A stretch of DNA of 64,000 bases from a virus: the IMG/VR virus record IMGVR_UViG_3300028763_000006, positions 55,070 through 119,069 of that record, one strand, 5' to 3'. Shown here in pieces: positions 20,181-62,845 of the stretch (positions are counted from its first letter, which is position 1; each line of letters opens with the position of its first letter). The notes beneath the pieces were generated by a model. The model had not been told where the DNA came from. It worked only from the letters and a program-made list of their open reading frames with translations, and did not search any database. The position numbers and the translations under genes are program-made.

Positions 20181-22067
20181 ATGTCCAGTACTAAAAAAAT
20201 GATAAAGATTAATCCAAATGTCTTAATGGAATGGACATTTGATAATGAAAATAATGTAACAGAAAATTATAAAGTTATAACTAATCTTAATGAAAACAAA
20301 AAGAGAAGTTTTCTTTCTACTATAAGCAATAATAATATAAATAATAATTTATTTTTATTAGATACTGTTCTTAGAAAATATACTACAATTAATACTGAAA
20401 AGTATAATTTTTTACAATATCAAGATTATAATACTGCTCCTATACCATATGATAATGTAAAATTATATTTACCTACAAATTATAATTTTGTTTTAAATGA
20501 ATATGTTGGATTATATGTTAAAATTTATACATACGATTATTATAATGAGAGTATGTATGAGTTAGCTAATATTTTTTTCGATTCAACAACAAAATCAACT
20601 TCAGGTATGACTTTATCTGTTCCATTTTTATATGATGGACAAGAATGGGGTAAATATTATGAATTTCAAATACCTTCAATTGATTATGTTTCTAATCAAA
20701 GAACAACTACATTAACAGATAATTCTGTATTAAGTAATACAATCAATGATAATTTTACTCTTGGAATAGGATTAAGTCAAACATCTCCAATATTTGTAGA
20801 TTTTAAATATTTAGTAACAAAAGAAAATGTTCTAGGTACTACATATTATTATTCATCTGAATCTTATAATACGTCTTTTTCAAAAAGCGCAGATTATAAT
20901 ACATTAGCTGTTAATATTAAAGAATCTACTGAAGGTGATTTCTTTGAAATTAATGGTACATATGGTAATTCAAATCAAAATTTAGATAATTTTATAAGAG
21001 AAATGGAAAATAAAGGTCGTAGAATGAGAATAGAATACGATATTTATTTATTAGAAGAAAATATTCAAACTAATATGCAAACCGTTGTTGTTTCAGGAAT
21101 AGGAATAAATGATGATTTTACAAAAACTATATTATATAGACCTATTTTAACTTTTTCAAATACCACTGCTGCAATAAGAGTTGTTATGAGGGTTATTGAT
21201 TTGGTTGATATGAGTACCATTGAAAGAACATCAACATTAGGATTAGATAATAACATTCAAAAATACGGCAAAAAATTAATTAGTTTAAATATACAAAATT
21301 TGAATAAAATTAAAATTTATAATGCCAAACCAGATGAAATTGTATTAGGAAATGATTATTTATCAGGAAATATAACAACAGAAATTGTTAAAGTAAATTC
21401 TCCTCAATTAATAGAAGTTGGAAAATTGATAGTTAATAGTTCTTCTAATAGTTCTTCTACTGCTTTAACAAATAATGATTATAAAACTATGGGATTATTG
21501 AATATTGTAATTACTCCATTTGATAATATTATTCAATTTAGATTAGCATCTCTTCAATCAACAAATAGTACAACAAATCAATTAGTTATATATGATTTAT
21601 CTACAATCTTAAATAATTCTGAATTAGTTCTAATATTTAAATCTGATTCTGAAACTATAGAAAAATCAATATATAAAGAAGCTACAAACGATTATGTAAA
21701 TGGTATAGTCAATTTTAAAATTTTAGAAAATGATTTAACGGTATTGAAATCAATTTATAATAAAGGATTTACAAATTTTTATTTAACATTAGTTTCAAAT
21801 AATCAATCATCAACTAGCTCAAGTCAAGTTATCGGATTAGATAAAGTAAGAACTTTATTATATTCTGGTACATTTACTTTATTTGAAGATATTACATTTG
21901 TTGATAATAGTGTTAATTATATATCTGATTCAAGTAGCTCTGTTCCTATATCATCAAGTATAACATCAACTGACACCACGACATCATCAGAGTCAATATG
22001 GCCTATGGCAGGAAGAACAGTTATAATTTATACTAAATATAAAGATACATCTTCTACATCAAATTAA
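20181..22067 (+). CDS. Large structural protein
   Basis: 628 residues, rich in Asn/Thr/Ser/Tyr and beta strands, with a Ser/Thr-rich C-terminus (SSSVPISSSITSTDTTTSS). It heads an operon with two further structural genes. No specific family recognised; probably a tail, baseplate or fibre component by composition and context. Confidence 0.55.
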   Translation: MSSTKKMIKINPNVLMEWTFDNENNVTENYKVITNLNENKKRSFLSTISNNNINNNLFLLDTVLRKYTTINTEKYNFLQYQDYNTAPIPYDNVKLYLPTNYNFVLNEYVGLYVKIYTYDYYNESMYELANIFFDSTTKSTSGMTLSVPFLYDGQEWGKYYEFQIPSIDYVSNQRTTTLTDNSVLSNTINDNFTLGIGLSQTSPIFVDFKYLVTKENVLGTTYYYSSESYNTSFSKSADYNTLAVNIKESTEGDFFEINGTYGNSNQNLDNFIREMENKGRRMRIEYDIYLLEENIQTNMQTVVVSGIGINDDFTKTILYRPILTFSNTTAAIRVVMRVIDLVDMSTIERTSTLGLDNNIQKYGKKLISLNIQNLNKIKIYNAKPDEIVLGNDYLSGNITTEIVKVNSPQLIEVGKLIVNSSSNSSSTALTNNDYKTMGLLNIVITPFDNIIQFRLASLQSTNSTTNQLVIYDLSTILNNSELVLIFKSDSETIEKSIYKEATNDYVNGIVNFKILENDLTVLKSIYNKGFTNFYLTLVSNNQSSTSSSQVIGLDKVRTLLYSGTFTLFEDITFVDNSVNYISDSSSSVPISSSITSTDTTTSSESIWPMAGRTVIIYTKYKDTSSTSN

Positions 22068-56920: not shown

Positions 56921-57147
56921 CATCAAAAGATATATGCAATAGAATATTATTCATTGATAATAGAATCTTCGGATTGAAAATACTTATGAATCGTTATTCA
57001 CTTAGTAATGATGAATATTTGGAATCATATAATAGCAAAGTTGAATTTGAAGAGGAAATAAAAAAACTTGAAAAAAACTTAAAATTAAATAGAATAAGAA
57101 AAGAAAAATTAAAAGAATTAAATGACATCAAAAGATATTTACAATAG
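56917..57147 (+). CDS. Set B protein, tandem copy 1
   Basis: 76 residues, MTSKDICNRILFIDNRIFGLKI to IRKEKLKELNDIKRYLQ. It runs 26 bases into the next copy, so its last residues (NDIKRYLQ) are the paralogue's first codons read in another frame. Helical. Confidence 0.65.
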   Translation: MTSKDICNRILFIDNRIFGLKILMNRYSLSNDEYLESYNSKVEFEEEIKKLEKNLKLNRIRKEKLKELNDIKRYLQ

Positions 57148-57337
57148 AATAATTAAAATAGAAACTTCATTATTCGGACTTAAAATTATTGTCAATAGCA
57201 ATTATGGAATTAATTGTAATCATATAGAAGCTATTAATGAAATTATTGAGTTAAAAAGAGAATTGTATATATTGAAAGATAAATTAATTAATATTAATAT
57301 AAGAAAAGAAAAATTAAAAAATCTCAATAACATATGA
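57122..57337 (+). CDS. Set B protein, tandem copy 2
   Basis: 71 residues, MTSKDIYNRIIKIETSLFGLKI to IRKEKLKNLNNI. Tandem duplicate of the preceding gene with identical start and tail; overlaps the next gene by 4 bases. Confidence 0.65.
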   Translation: MTSKDIYNRIIKIETSLFGLKIIVNSNYGINCNHIEAINEIIELKRELYILKDKLININIRKEKLKNLNNI

Positions 57338-57690
57338 TTGATTATAGCAAAGATATAATATTATCAAGAGAAATGAAAACTGTACATGAACAAATGTCTG
57401 ACAAATTATACGAAAATGTGAGATTGCTATGTAACGTAGAAACAAGAAATAAACAAATATACGTCTCATTATTTAATTACAATTATTTTAATTATGAGTA
57501 TCCTTATTTTGATGATCATGACGTAATATATAAAGTAGATAATGAAGATTTCTATAAAAACTTTAAAAAAATAAGAAAAATCAAAGGAGATTATAATAAT
57601 TCATACAAACCAATAAAATTTAAAACTGAACTTGAATGCCTAATATATTTGAAATCAATAGGTATTGATGAAGTTAGCCTAAATAATTAA
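57334..57690 (+). CDS. Hypothetical protein
   Basis: 118 residues, Tyr/Asn/Asp-rich, last gene before the tRNA operon. Helix at the start (SREMKTVHEQMSDKLYENV) then strands. No family recognised. Confidence 0.55.
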   Translation: MIDYSKDIILSREMKTVHEQMSDKLYENVRLLCNVETRNKQIYVSLFNYNYFNYEYPYFDDHDVIYKVDNEDFYKNFKKIRKIKGDYNNSYKPIKFKTELECLIYLKSIGIDEVSLNN

Positions 57691-57707
57691 AAATAATTAC
57701 ATGAAAG

Positions 57708-57739
57708 TTTGGTAAATTGAAAACTTTTTTGTACTTTTG
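57708..57739 (+). promoter_or_regulatory. Strong host-type promoter of the leucine tRNA operon
   Basis: TTTG (57708-57711), 20-base spacer, TACTTTTG (57732-57739). The AGTTTGGTAAAT context matches the promoter at 53976. Transcription would begin near 57745, about 50 bases ahead of the leader peptide. Confidence 0.8.
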
Positions 57740-57793
57740 TACTACATAATAAAAATAGAAAAAAATCACATTTTTAAGATAATATATACTGAT

Positions 57794-57886
57794 ATGAAAA
57801 ACTACAATAACATAATGAACTTGCTACTCTCAAACCTATTATTACAGAATAATCGGACTGAGAATATTATGTCATATCTATTGTAA
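57794..57886 (+). CDS. Leucine-rich leader peptide (attenuator)
   Basis: 30 codons from ATG 57794 to TAA 57884-57886. Eight are leucine: TTG-CTA-CTC (57821-57829), CTA-TTA-TTA (57836-57844) and CTA-TTG just before the stop. Other residues are mostly Asn, Ser, Met and Tyr. The codons are those read by the CAA, UAG, AAG and UAA tRNAs encoded downstream, whereas ordinary genes here use mostly TTA for leucine. The layout (leader, pairing RNA arms, terminator, then tRNA genes) is that of amino-acid attenuation as in the leu, his and trp operons. Its product is probably just a sensor. Confidence 0.85.
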   Translation: MKNYNNIMNLLLSNLLLQNNRTENIMSYLL

Positions 57887-57943
57887 CAAATAATATAAGC
57901 ATATTTAAAAACCTCAGTCATTTATTTGACTGAGGTTTTTTCT
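57810..57943 (+). promoter_or_regulatory. Transcription attenuator controlled by leucyl-tRNA supply
   Basis: Four arms are visible. Arm 1 (ACATAAT 57810-57816 and TCTCA 57828-57832) pairs with arm 2 (TGAGA 57859-57863 and ATTATGT 57866-57872). Arm 2 also pairs as GACTGAG (57856-57862) with arm 3 CTCAGTC (57913-57919): the antiterminator, extended by AATAA/TTATT. Arm 3 pairs with arm 4: ACCTCAGTCA (57911-57920) with TGACTGAGGT (57927-57936), then a T-run: the terminator. A ribosome stalled at the first leucine codons covers arm 1, freeing arm 2 to form the antiterminator. Confidence 0.85.
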
Positions 57944-57956
57944 TTTATAATAAAAT

Positions 57957-58041
57957 GCTCTGATGGTGGAATTGGCGATACACGAAGGTCTTAAAAACCT
58001 TTACATTAGAAACGATGCGGGTCCGAATCCCGCTCAGAGTA
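57957..58041 (+). tRNA. tRNA-Leu (anticodon UAA), first copy
   Basis: Acceptor GCTCTGA with TCAGAGT (first pair G-U), anticodon arm AAGGT-CTTAAAA-ACCTT (anticodon TAA, reads TTA), a long class II variable arm, T-arm GCGGG-TCCGAAT-CCCGC, discriminator A73. CCA is not encoded. Confidence 0.88.
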
Positions 58042-58046
58042 CAAAT

Positions 58047-58133
58047 GTTCCTGTGATGAAATTGGTAGCACATGCAAGACTTAAAATTTTGTGGATAGTA
58101 ATATCCGTGTCGGTTCAAGTCCGACCAGGAATA
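58047..58133 (+). tRNA. tRNA-Leu (anticodon UAA), second copy
   Basis: Acceptor GTTCCTG with CAGGAAT (G-U first pair), anticodon arm CAAGA-CTTAAAA-TTTTG (TAA), variable-arm hairpin GGATA/TATCC, T-arm GTCGG-TTCAAGT-CCGAC, A73. The body differs from the first copy, so it is not a recent duplicate. Confidence 0.85.
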
Positions 58134-58143
58134 CAAAAAAAAT

Positions 58144-58229
58144 GCTGATGTGGCGAAATGAATACGCGGCAGTCTAAGAAACTGTTTCTGAACAAAGTAA
58201 GAATGTGGGTTCAAGTCCCACCATCAGTA
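58144..58229 (+). tRNA. tRNA-Leu (anticodon AAG)
   Basis: Acceptor GCTGATG with CATCAGT (G-U first pair), D-arm GCG/CGC, anticodon arm GCAGT-CTAAGAA-ACTGT (AAG, reads CTT, and CTC if A34 becomes inosine), long variable arm, T-arm GTGGG-TTCAAGT-CCCAC, A73. A34 is rare in bacterial leucine tRNAs, which normally use GAG. Confidence 0.85.
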
Positions 58230-58236
58230 CAATAAT

Positions 58237-58310
58237 GACTGAGTGATGTAATTGGTAACCATGTCATCCTCAAAAGGTGAATTTTGTGGGTCCGAATCCC
58301 ATCTCAGTTA
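58237..58310 (+). tRNA. tRNA-Leu (anticodon CAA), short variable loop
   Basis: Acceptor GACTGAG with CTCAGTT (G-U first pair), anticodon arm TCATC-CTCAAAA-GGTGA (CAA, reads TTG), T-arm GTGGG-TCCGAAT-CCCAT, A73. The variable loop is only 5 bases (ATTTT), although leucine tRNAs normally have a long one. Confidence 0.78.
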
Positions 58311-58318
58311 CAAAAAAT

Positions 58319-58408
58319 GTTCCAGTGGCGAAACTTGGTTGAGACGCGTTAGATTTAGGATCTAATACAGTTAATGACACACTGCGGGTCCAAATCCCGC
58401 CTGGAATA
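58319..58408 (+). tRNA. tRNA-Leu (anticodon UAG)
   Basis: Acceptor GTTCCAG with CTGGAAT (G-U first pair), D-arm GCG/CGC, anticodon arm TTAGA-TTTAGGA-TCTAA (TAG, reads CTA and CTG), long variable arm, T-arm GCGGG-TCCAAAT-CCCGC, A73. Confidence 0.88.
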
Positions 58409-58410
58409 CA

Positions 58411-58452
58411 AAGTGTGAGTCAATTTTATTATAAAAATTGACTCACACTTTT
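58411..58452. terminator. Terminator of the tRNA operon
   Basis: 17-base arms AAGTGTGAGTCAATTTT and AAAATTGACTCACACTT around a 6-base loop, 2 bases after the last tRNA; short T-run. Confidence 0.85.
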
Positions 58453-58459
58453 AAATATA

Positions 58460-58888
58460 TCATAGATTAAATTTCTTTGTAGTATCTACTATATTTTTTC
58501 TATATAGATAATCTTTCATTTCTTCGTCTGTTAGGTGTCTAATATATCCTGTTGGAACCCATGCAAAGAAATCGTGTTCATCTATATCAGATAGTGAATT
58601 TCTTAATGCATACCCATAATACCATTCATAATTAACTAGCACATATTCTTTACTATAATCATTATCAGTAAATTTGTCAGTCGTCTTTTTTTCATTATGT
58701 CTATTATATAATACTGAGTCTAATTTTTCAATATATTCTTTATCTAATTTAACTATATCACCATCATAAACACCAGTATGAAATTCTGGCCTTTTTATAT
58801 AAAAAATCTCACCATATGTTTCATCTTTTGTTGGTTCTCTTTGCCATATATCTTTTGATTCATTTATGAATTGGTCATATTTTTTCAT
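58460..58888 (-). CDS. Set A protein with T4 capsid-targeting-like start
   Basis: 142 residues. It starts MKKYDQFINESK, very like the T4 internal-protein start MKTYQEFI.E, and ends TKKFNL (Leu as CTA). Last gene of a five-gene reverse operon. The middle has no known domain. A packaged or ejected protein is a reasonable guess, unproven. Confidence 0.7.
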   Translation of the reverse strand: MKKYDQFINESKDIWQREPTKDETYGEIFYIKRPEFHTGVYDGDIVKLDKEYIEKLDSVLYNRHNEKKTTDKFTDNDYSKEYVLVNYEWYYGYALRNSLSDIDEHDFFAWVPTGYIRHLTDEEMKDYLYRKNIVDTTKKFNL

Positions 58889-59316
58889 ATATTAAATTTA
58901 TTTGCGTCTTTTTTTATTTTAAATAATTCTTCTGCACCTTTTAATCCAATTTTCAAAAATTCATCTAATGGAATAATAACATTATCATGACTACGAATAT
59001 CAAATGATCTCATTTTAACTAAATCTATTGTATCTCTTAGATTTTCTGAATCACTCCAACTTTCATATACTTTAATATACCATATCCATTTGATATCAGA
59101 ATCTTTATAATATTCAATATCGGATTTATTTATCAATAAATTTTTTATAGTATGTTGATCTAAATTTGCATATTTATTAAATTCATCAAATGCTTCATAT
59201 TGTTTTTCTTCTGTTACATTTTCTAATAATATAAAAAAATTAAAATCCATACCATTAGATTTGCCTATTTTTCCATATGCTCTATTTTCATTAATATATT
59301 GATCAAAACTTTTCAT
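58885..59316 (-). CDS. Set A protein with T4 capsid-targeting-like start
   Basis: 143 residues, starts MKSFDQYINENR and ends ANKFNI. It overlaps both neighbours by 4 bases (ATGA). The middle (GMDFNFFILLENVTEEKQYEAF) is not recognised. Confidence 0.7.
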   Translation of the reverse strand: MKSFDQYINENRAYGKIGKSNGMDFNFFILLENVTEEKQYEAFDEFNKYANLDQHTIKNLLINKSDIEYYKDSDIKWIWYIKVYESWSDSENLRDTIDLVKMRSFDIRSHDNVIIPLDEFLKIGLKGAEELFKIKKDANKFNI

Positions 59317-61453: not shown

Positions 61454-62845
61454 ATGAATAAAAATAAACTCGTTTTAAAATCTAAATATAATACAAATAG
61501 ATATTATATTAATTTTTCAAAAACAAATGGAAAAATAATATTGGGTCCAAATTCAATTTTAAATCCAACCAATTATACTCTAAATGAATCTAATAATGAC
61601 TTGACTATGGAAAATAATAATTATGAACCAAAAGACAATTCTTCATTAGTAAAAAACTTAAAAATGAGTACAAACTTATTTAATAATACTATAATAGAAA
61701 ATAATAATCATATATATCCAAAAAATGCAATTTTTATAAGTGCATCAGAAACTACTACAACTACATTTACAACTCTTGTACCTACAACCACAACAACTAC
61801 AACTCTTGTACCTACAACCACAACAACTACAACTCTTGTACCTACAACTACCACAACAACTCTTGTACCTACAACTACCACAACAACTCTTGTACCTACA
61901 ACTACCACAACAACTCTTGTACCTACAACCACAACCACTACAACTCTTGTACCTACAACCACAACAACTACAACTCTTGTACCTACAACCACAACAACTA
62001 CAACTCTTGTACCTACAACTACCACAACAACTACTACTATAGTTCCTGAAACAACAACCACAACATCAACAACCACAGTTATTATTTCGACTTTTTCTGA
62101 ATCAATAGAAAATAGCATTTCAACTACAACATCAACAACTAAAAAAGAATTAAAAGCAGAATTGAGTATGATTAATAATCATACACTAAAACTAATTATA
62201 TCTGGTGGTTCTCCTAACTATAATTATTCATTTACATCAACAATCACAAGTGGAAGTTGTGTCGGCTGTTTTGTCACTAATCCGTCAGAAGGAATTATTT
62301 CTATTGATGGAGGCTCAACAATTAAAATATTTAACTATGCAGAAATTTCTGGAATGAATTATGGCATATCATCTACTGTAACAGATAGTAATGGGAACAC
62401 AGTAGAATCAAATATTATATCTCCATTAATATGCTTAGTACCAGAAACATTAATAACAATGTTTGATAATACCACAAAAAAATTAAAAGATATTATAATA
62501 GGAGATGAATTATTAACAATTGATAATAATAAATTAGTTATGACAAAAGTAATTGGAAAAAGCTTACATGTTGCAAATGAAACAATTAGTATAAATAATG
62601 AATTATTAGAGTCATCTTTATCACACAATCATTTAATAAGAAAAAATGGATTAATTGAAAAAGTTAATGGTTATAATTTAAAATTAGGTGATAAATTAAT
62701 AGACATAAACAATAATGATGTAATTATTGAAAAAATAAAACTTAATAATTCGCCTCATGATGTAATTAATATATCTACTGAATTAGGTACATATATAGCA
62801 AATAACATTCTTACTCACAACAAATCAGAATGTCAACAAATATAA
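61454..62845 (+). CDS. Virion-type protein with Thr-rich repeats and C-terminal Hint (intein-like) domain
   Basis: 463 residues. N-terminal 95 residues unrecognised; then about 100 residues of TTTTTTLVP repeats, nine LVP units and one IVP; a beta domain (about 230-325); and a Hint domain from C327 (CLVPETLITMF) through SLSHNHLI to ILTHN (H455-N456). The Cys start, internal His and HN end are the splice-site residues of inteins and bacterial intein-like (BIL) domains. At about 130 residues with no endonuclease, only seven residues follow N456, so cleavage rather than splicing may be the outcome. A likely self-processing fibre or decoration protein. Confidence 0.8.
   Translation: MNKNKLVLKSKYNTNRYYINFSKTNGKIILGPNSILNPTNYTLNESNNDLTMENNNYEPKDNSSLVKNLKMSTNLFNNTIIENNNHIYPKNAIFISASETTTTTFTTLVPTTTTTTTLVPTTTTTTTLVPTTTTTTLVPTTTTTTLVPTTTTTTLVPTTTTTTTLVPTTTTTTTLVPTTTTTTTLVPTTTTTTTTIVPETTTTTSTTTVIISTFSESIENSISTTTSTTKKELKAELSMINNHTLKLIISGGSPNYNYSFTSTITSGSCVGCFVTNPSEGIISIDGGSTIKIFNYAEISGMNYGISSTVTDSNGNTVESNIISPLICLVPETLITMFDNTTKKLKDIIIGDELLTIDNNKLVMTKVIGKSLHVANETISINNELLESSLSHNHLIRKNGLIEKVNGYNLKLGDKLIDINNNDVIIEKIKLNNSPHDVINISTELGTYIANNILTHNKSECQQI
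61769..62040 (+). repeat. 27/30-base tandem repeat encoding Thr-Leu-Val-Pro
   Basis: Nine CTTGTACC-containing units with spacings of 27 or 30 bases and many ACA/ACC/ACT codons. The repeat could expand or contract by slippage in 3-base steps, keeping frame. Confidence 0.85.

Follow-up and report, generated by a model that had tools for sequence, protein, structure and literature searches.

The window analysed here, a stretch of 64,000 nucleotides covering positions 55,070-119,069 of the 119,069-base virus record IMGVR_UViG_3300028763_000006, carries a leucine locus whose parts are collected in Table 1. A leader ORF is followed by an intrinsic terminator (57907-57940; 14 pairs, -19.8 kcal), by tandem tRNA-Leu genes, all five of them above the Rfam RF00005 gathering score, and by a closing hairpin with its T-run. 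These elements agree with a preliminary description of the locus, which had listed a 30-codon leader with eight Leu codons, five tandem tRNAs with leucine anticodons throughout and terminators on either side of them; its spacing of 14 bases between the upstream terminator and the first tRNA needs correction, as the stem ends 16 bases before that gene. Three terminator-like sites occur in 57000-59200, against 0.3 in shuffled sequences, the other two being on the minus strand within tRNA genes. The host-type promoter of that description is also present, and its TTG-N20-TACTTTTG arrangement fits what we take to be the Bacteroidota promoter consensus.

Table 1. Features of the leucine locus, in window coordinates
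Feature	Position	Strand	Basis or remark
Putative Bacteroidota-type promoter	TTG 57709-57711, N20, TACTTTTG 57732-57739	+	Sequence; pattern recurs before relatives' leaders
TAATATATAC motif directly 5' of start codon	57780-57789	+	Possible second (phage-type) promoter; putative function
Leader ORF MKNYNNIMNLLLSNLLLQNNRTENIMSYLL	57794-57886	+	30 sense codons, 8 Leu: codons 10-12, 15-17, 29-30; placed relative to its terminator as other leaders are
Segment 1	57828-57843	+	Pairs with segment 2; overlaps Leu codons 12 and 15-17; RNA folding
Segment 2	57848-57863	+	Core GACTGAG (57856-57862) pairs with segment 3 (antiterminator)
Segment 3 (terminator 5' arm)	57907-57920	+	Terminator scan, folding
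Segment 4 and U-rich tail of terminator	57927-57946	+	Sequence, terminator scan
tRNA-Leu (TAA), first	57957-58042	+	ARAGORN; RF00005 51.6 bits
tRNA-Leu (TAA), second	58047-58134	+	ARAGORN; RF00005 49.1 bits
tRNA-Leu (AAG)	58144-58230	+	ARAGORN; RF00005 52.6 bits
tRNA-Leu (CAA)	58237-58311	+	ARAGORN; RF00005 51.4 bits
tRNA-Leu (TAG)	58319-58409	+	ARAGORN; RF00005 47.4 bits
Closing hairpin with terminal T-run	58410-58452		By eye; probable operon end

Folding of 57745-57957 gave a z of -5.2, and the three alternative pairings that had been described, 1:2, 2:3 and 3:4, were all recovered by folding and duplex computation. The 1:2 hairpin (57828-57863) reaches -8.8 kcal, while in 2:3 GACTGAG pairs with CTCAGTC at 57913-57919 in a duplex of -12.1 kcal (p 0.005 against shuffles). 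Masking the RNA 5' of 57845 and omitting segment 4 gives a predicted fold with the 2:3 helix; when segment 4 is present the terminator wins, 3:4 being far stronger than 2:3, so that a switch must be kinetic. In known attenuators, switching is likewise assumed to be kinetic.

The composition of the leader is weak evidence by itself. The chance of finding at least 8 Leu in 29 codons is 1.7e-3 under the codon usage of the window, and 22 of its 307 ATG ORFs of 20-45 amino acids are equally Leu-rich; for this reason Leu-richness was dropped as sole proof, and the case rests on architecture and on relatives. TTA makes up two of the eight leader Leu codons as compared to 62% of Leu codons (p 0.037), which is no more than suggestive of a leader that senses particular Leu isoacceptors. 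Elsewhere in the window, ORF 61454-62845 encodes long TTTTTTLVP repeats and then a C-terminal stretch (CLVPETLITM...) that, judging by motif, presumably resembles a Hint/intein-type domain.

Three close relatives (L005, L006 and L008) proved identical to the window in a comparison of 1300 bases. The preliminary description had turned on whether related phages keep the tRNAs and lack the leader, its Leu codons or the pairing arms. In the more divergent L007, where a nearby protein is 90% identical to that of the window and the leader and tRNA stretch only 83% identical, the leader differs by one base and has 9 Leu, and both arms and terminator are kept. Its Leu array has four tRNAs, the fourth lying behind a coding-looking insert (L007:13914-15115) that is homing-endonuclease-like in position only; similar inserts also occur within tRNA arrays of other phages. 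Among 50,697 phage records, the 642 kb LR756502.1 was the sole one with DNA similarity (E up to 1e-5), at 77% over the promoter and start codon. The window phage itself has a second array, on the 235 kb contig G001, with tRNAs for Arg, Pro, Ala, Gly, Val and Thr preceded by MNNISRHITTGTATTTATTPVTGGRPVAYLGDNNLS, a leader in which T, G, A, P, V and R are abundant.

Comparison of leader codons across phages, which had been proposed as a check, showed that other tRNA sets of distant huge phages also have leaders with matching residues. LR756502 has no leucine-only arrays among these, nor are the leaders rich in Leu: MTTSFQQQQQQQINRTD, with seven Gln codons, stands before four tRNA-Gln and a glutaminyl-tRNA-synthetase-like gene, and MKNLILNIAIQVQRQVVVDQDQPDTTE.. 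stands upstream of Pro and Asp tRNAs. Matching leaders were found at a Phe/His/Trp/Lys array (..KHKHFSKLNKWF..), at an Arg/Ser array (..SSRSRSSK..), at Glu/Tyr, Ile/Gly/Ala and Asn/Leu/Thr/Val/Met arrays, at the His/Trp/Arg/Thr array of G042 (..STTTTNRWHRRTRT..) and at the Leu/Met array of G047 (MKNINLNMNLLNLMETLDRILI). Where the grouping of tRNAs changes, so does the leader: Glu/Tyr and Gly/Ala are fused in G047 and G006 and separate elsewhere, with leaders that change accordingly, and Asp/Pro/Gln form one array or are split, the leader residues changing with the grouping. At a fourteen-amino-acid array (L199) the leader MRNTNKHMNVVIWKQQFSNCSYPR.. contains all fourteen residues, the overall ratio being only 1.10 because the amino-acid set is so large.

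A second set of genomes comprised LR756501 (735,411 bases), LR756504 (636,363), Prevotella phage Lak-A1 (541,643) and LR756500 (462,018). A second Leu-only array occurs in the 735 kb phage. Within the set, MNNILHINLLNSLCLLGIKLIG is found upstream of five tRNA-Leu, MKAMILSLCLSLSLSLQKLG.. upstream of Leu/Ser/Cys tRNAs, MKTIAMIIRMRIIRPKMLG upstream of Arg/Ile/Met tRNAs, MKTKKQQYKQYQPQYK.. upstream of Tyr/Gln/Lys tRNAs and, in Lak-A1, ..GMHPVCGMVHMFPCGGGRPM.. upstream of His/Pro/Arg/Gly/Cys/Met tRNAs; the Arg/Pro/Ala/Thr/Val/Gly array of LR756501 has a leader (MLFNSNISVKFTPAPAVAFRRGTGTGTGTCVPAG...) that falls outside our distance rule and was left uncounted. By hand count, the putative attenuator recurs in about forty virus records, some 34 once evident copies are removed. 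A single leader in these relatives may encode as few as one or as many as fourteen amino acids, mostly those served by its own array, and with leaders matching arrays in this way each phage appears to partition much of its tRNA complement into a small number of self-regulated groups. The earlier reading of a leucine attenuator is therefore supported by comparison but too narrow, as the family spans most amino acids. In phages of related kinds (L257, L260, L263 and LR756501 688500-692500) we also observed tRNAs with CTA anticodons, called Pyl by ARAGORN, which are probably amber suppressors of TAG-recoding phages.

The match between leaders and arrays was quantified with a unit rule requiring a terminator before tRNAs and taking as leader the ORF with its stop codon closest to 24 nt before the terminator. 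On ten records, a leader was present in 44 of 45 units, at stop-to-terminator distances of 17-35 nt whose narrowness is partly a construction of that rule; the leaderless unit, a lone weak tRNA-Tyr match, was excluded from the type permutation and frame tests. Cognate residues made up a larger fraction than expected in 43 of 44 units of these records, and the cognate match was better in frame 0 than in frames 1 and 2 for 44 of 44 leaders. For nine array types, which were named after the arrays had been inspected, the true leader-array pairing was the best of all 362,880 permutations.

A wider sample was assembled from UvsX and ClpP relatives plus tRNA scans of 38 further records (for UvsX, 79 loci, with 38 records scanned for tRNAs, 21 having some and pieces from 16 analysed; for GlnRS, pieces from 7 of at least 9 matching records). 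Relatives were scanned with ARAGORN at a relaxed threshold, which leaves some array members uncertain. Cognate residues exceeded the proteome expectation in 83 of 85 distinct leader-terminator segments, those below it being L069 Asp/Glu/Pro (0.74) and L189 MEITEHP.. (0.00). Two segments judged spurious, MHIVKRM... and MEITEHP..., were retained in the count of 85 and left out of the 2:3, promoter, covariation, own-arm and fold-shuffle counts, and the leaders of G018, G020, L199 and L214 were found by eye or by looser rules and then passed the 85-segment rule. In the second set, whose leaders were inspected before scoring, the ORF-choice rule was the same, with tRNA spacing limits of 1500/2500 nt as against 1100/1800 nt for the 85 segments. 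There, 17 of 18 scored units, among at least 19 leader-like ones, lay above expectation, no permutation of leaders among 200,000 scored as high as the true arrangement (z 5.3), and 12 of 18 arrays had their own leader in first place. The exception, W03 137959 (Met), has the appearance of an ORF arising by chance. The nineteenth unit, W05 110959 (MAKVKRCCRFSITRL), went unscored because the sole tRNA in reach had a CTA anticodon, and would show no enrichment if set against the more distant Leu and Ser tRNAs. Leaders that are orthologous do not count as independent, a point addressed by the nine-type permutation and by the second set.

These comparisons bear on two readings other than attenuation. 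It seems improbable to us that leader and terminator merely set a fixed, unregulated tRNA level, the peptide composition being a by-product, for instance of codons copied with the arrays. Such an arrangement would fit the dominance of 3:4 in the folds, and the case for regulation is drawn from sequence and comparison; leader residues nevertheless track array content through splits and fusions, and the amino-acid match is strongest in one frame in every leader of the ten records. Even less is to be said for the small ORF encoding a working peptide, such as a binder of ribosomes or tRNAs, ahead of an ordinary terminator between two units. The near-constancy of the Leu leader in L007, next to tRNAs that diverged more, is what a working peptide would predict, yet leaders of different arrays share by eye little sequence beyond the amino acids of their array, and no single function suits QQQQQ, YYYEE and SSSSRSS.

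Attenuation also predicts competing RNA structures, and these extend beyond the window. The 2:3 duplex between the 3' part of the leader and the terminator 5' arm was significant against dinucleotide shuffles (p<0.05) in 60 of 83 segments, with a median z of -2.7 and 23 segments falling short, and in 15 of 18 units of the second set; its mean energy was -9.58 kcal compared to -6.14 kcal in shuffles. In 79 of 83 predicted folds, segment 2 had 4 nt or more paired with upstream bases, as compared to 48.9% of shuffled sequences. Cognate codons account for 63% of these partners and for 50% of the sequence preceding segment 2. Within families, the own arm performed better than the differing arm of a relative in 247 of 336 cases and worse in 85, most clearly in the family of the second array of the window phage (52 better, 2 worse); no such advantage was seen in the Asp/Pro family (15 better, 27 worse), and only 22 of 44 own arms did better than 95% of the arms taken from other array types. 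In MAFFT alignments A3 and A4, 51 of 105 columns vary together, although the pairs were picked per sequence and are not independent, so that we rely on the duplex, own-arm and fold tests.

Upstream of the leaders, TTG-N17-23-TAnnTTTG was present in 40 of 82 cases (0.4 in shuffles), TAnnTTTG in 61 of 82 (7.1 in shuffles) and TAATATATA in 41 of 82 (0.9 in shuffles), the last often near the start codon in the cases listed. The leaders would accordingly seem to have both a host-type promoter and a phage-type one, with TAATATATA possibly serving as a promoter of the phage late type.

A short ORF before a terminator means little by itself: in LR756502, 30 of 158 terminators have one at the right distance, seven of these before tRNAs, and it is composition that counts. 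Under the unit rule, no leader was found in Tenacibaculum phage pT24, considered as a cultured model and having few tRNAs, nor in T4, taken as a contrast, and PTm1 gave no tRNA match. Also counting against the proposal, 24 kinds of tRNA cluster in the wider sample, that of G036 among them, came without a leader within reach; at least two (L033 and L065) are cut array starts, many have Met-type tRNAs, and some of the remainder belong to phages of other kinds. In its favour, two GlnRS loci that carry no tRNA in the 17 kb analysed are also leaderless over the 1500 bases upstream.

Aminoacyl-tRNA synthetases may be under the same control. Genes that by eye are aspartyl/asparaginyl-tRNA-synthetase-like lie at L004:10491-11768 (LR756502, with the leader before 426305) and at L069:1859, in each case behind a leader with Asp codons and a terminator (MRKIIKLKDDRYLWTDCLAD; MTIKRIKLADDCLTCLTVTD), and a distant homologue at 2520 of L065 follows MKTMTINNRNRLTDII; other distant homologues (L083, L085 and L192) have no such leader. 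The ORF that in G020 separates leader and terminator from the tRNA array (L178, with the leader at record position 20641) may encode a synthetase. At LR756502 377658-379458 (in L032), a 14-residue leader, MKTLHTYKNVIDWM, with a strong 2:3 and a terminator precedes two small ORFs, an RNA-ligase-like gene with what we take to be its DKLDGSN motif, and a gene that is histidyl-tRNA-synthetase-like by eye. Here tRNA repair may possibly be under attenuation as well; ligase homologues in L064 and L191 had no leader in the same scan.

Taken together, these observations make it very probable that the window locus is a leader-peptide transcription attenuator placed on a phage tRNA operon, its response to charging being argued from known attenuators. 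The features of the trp type are present: an ORF of cognate codons, a terminator before the tRNAs, a mutually exclusive 2:3 helix, a 1:2 helix over the sensed codons and cognate tRNAs downstream, with the proviso that in relatives the terminator is there by construction, since units were selected for having one. With ample charged tRNA-Leu, or with no ribosome on the leader, 1:2 and then 3:4 would form and transcription would stop before the tRNAs. With charged tRNA-Leu scarce, a ribosome would stall at Leu codons 10-12 or 15-17 and cover segment 1, allowing 2:3 to form ahead of segment 4 synthesis, with the polymerase then continuing into the five tRNA-Leu genes.

A response of opposite sign, in which fast translation of the leader leads to read-through and tRNAs are made when amino acids are abundant, appears highly improbable. 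Such a response needs segment 2 to be free of a ribosome waiting at the stop codon, and in several types the segment is located far enough upstream for this; 1:2 can, however, re-form behind that ribosome and lead to termination, and known attenuators of the same plan use stalling. T-box riboswitches respond to uncharged tRNA and, like the phage leaders, bear on aminoacyl-tRNA supply, though they do so without a leader peptide; direct sensing of uncharged tRNA by a T-box or other riboswitch would share the biological logic of the locus and is barely credible, given that Rfam (E up to 1) returned no T-box or amino-acid leader family in 57600-58500. Weak matches to miRNA families in the same interval are perfect hairpins and not relatives.

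The attenuator proposed here closely follows the trp, his and leu attenuators of bacteria, in which ribosome stalling on a leader peptide controls amino-acid synthesis genes. As in the enterobacterial systems, there is a short leader of sensed codons, mutually exclusive 1:2, 2:3 and 3:4 pairings and a terminator before the first gene; the phage versions differ in controlling tRNA genes, perhaps with some synthetases, and in reading up to fourteen amino acids per leader. A further parallel is the ilv-leu attenuator of Staphylococcus aureus, for which an excerpt of PMC5794164 describes a Leu-rich leader, a terminator/antiterminator pair and stalling when Leu is low; that system serves amino-acid synthesis genes, and in its model the poly-U tail is the pairing partner of the antiterminator and the terminator stem-loop persists. 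The mechanism would be known in kind, and its setting, a virus, tRNA genes and many amino acids per leader, would be new.

In this regard, the preliminary description knew of no phage tRNA operon run by a leader-peptide attenuator, and we likewise found no report of leader-peptide control of phage tRNA genes in the open-licence literature, an absence that is no proof. Excerpts of PMC7162821 report up to 67 tRNAs in huge phages and assign five genomes above 634 kb to the Mahaphage clade, with predicted Bacteroidetes hosts, a placement that LR756502, LR745206, LR756501 and LR756504 appear to fit by size; the main text has neither "attenuat-" nor "leader". The main text of PMC13015707 contains neither "attenuat-" nor "leader peptide". 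According to excerpts of PMC10264068, phage tRNAs evade tRNA-cleaving defences, which resembles one possible purpose of the present arrays, the replacement of host tRNAs lost to defence; the work concerns changes in the anticodon loop, unlike control by leader and terminator, and the main text does not use "attenuat-", "leader peptide", "promoter" or "terminator".

As to purpose, we more tentatively suggest that the attenuators adjust the supply of tRNAs to need where those of the host undergo degradation or cleavage by defence nucleases, or do not suffice for the codons of the phage, the defence scenario being a guess. The broader picture, for which we see about even chances, is that huge phages of Bacteroidota possess a genome-wide, RNA-only controller of tRNA supply, with most of the tRNA set divided into arrays, each behind a leader that reads the charging of the amino acids served, up to fourteen at once, and with some synthetases controlled likewise; the phage would thereby sense the loss of host tRNAs during infection, to defence nucleases among other causes, and make good what is lost. 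Such leaders lay in published genomes, among them one of 735 kb, the size of the largest in PMC7162821.

If attenuation holds, its range, known from amino-acid synthesis genes, would widen to include viruses, tRNA genes and leaders monitoring many amino acids together, and the leaders would offer ready-made charging reporters for individual amino acids. The tRNAs would be made only when the cognate charged tRNAs run short, making the purpose of phage tRNAs testable, and each leader would identify a shortage to which the phage has been exposed so often that it retains a sensor for it.
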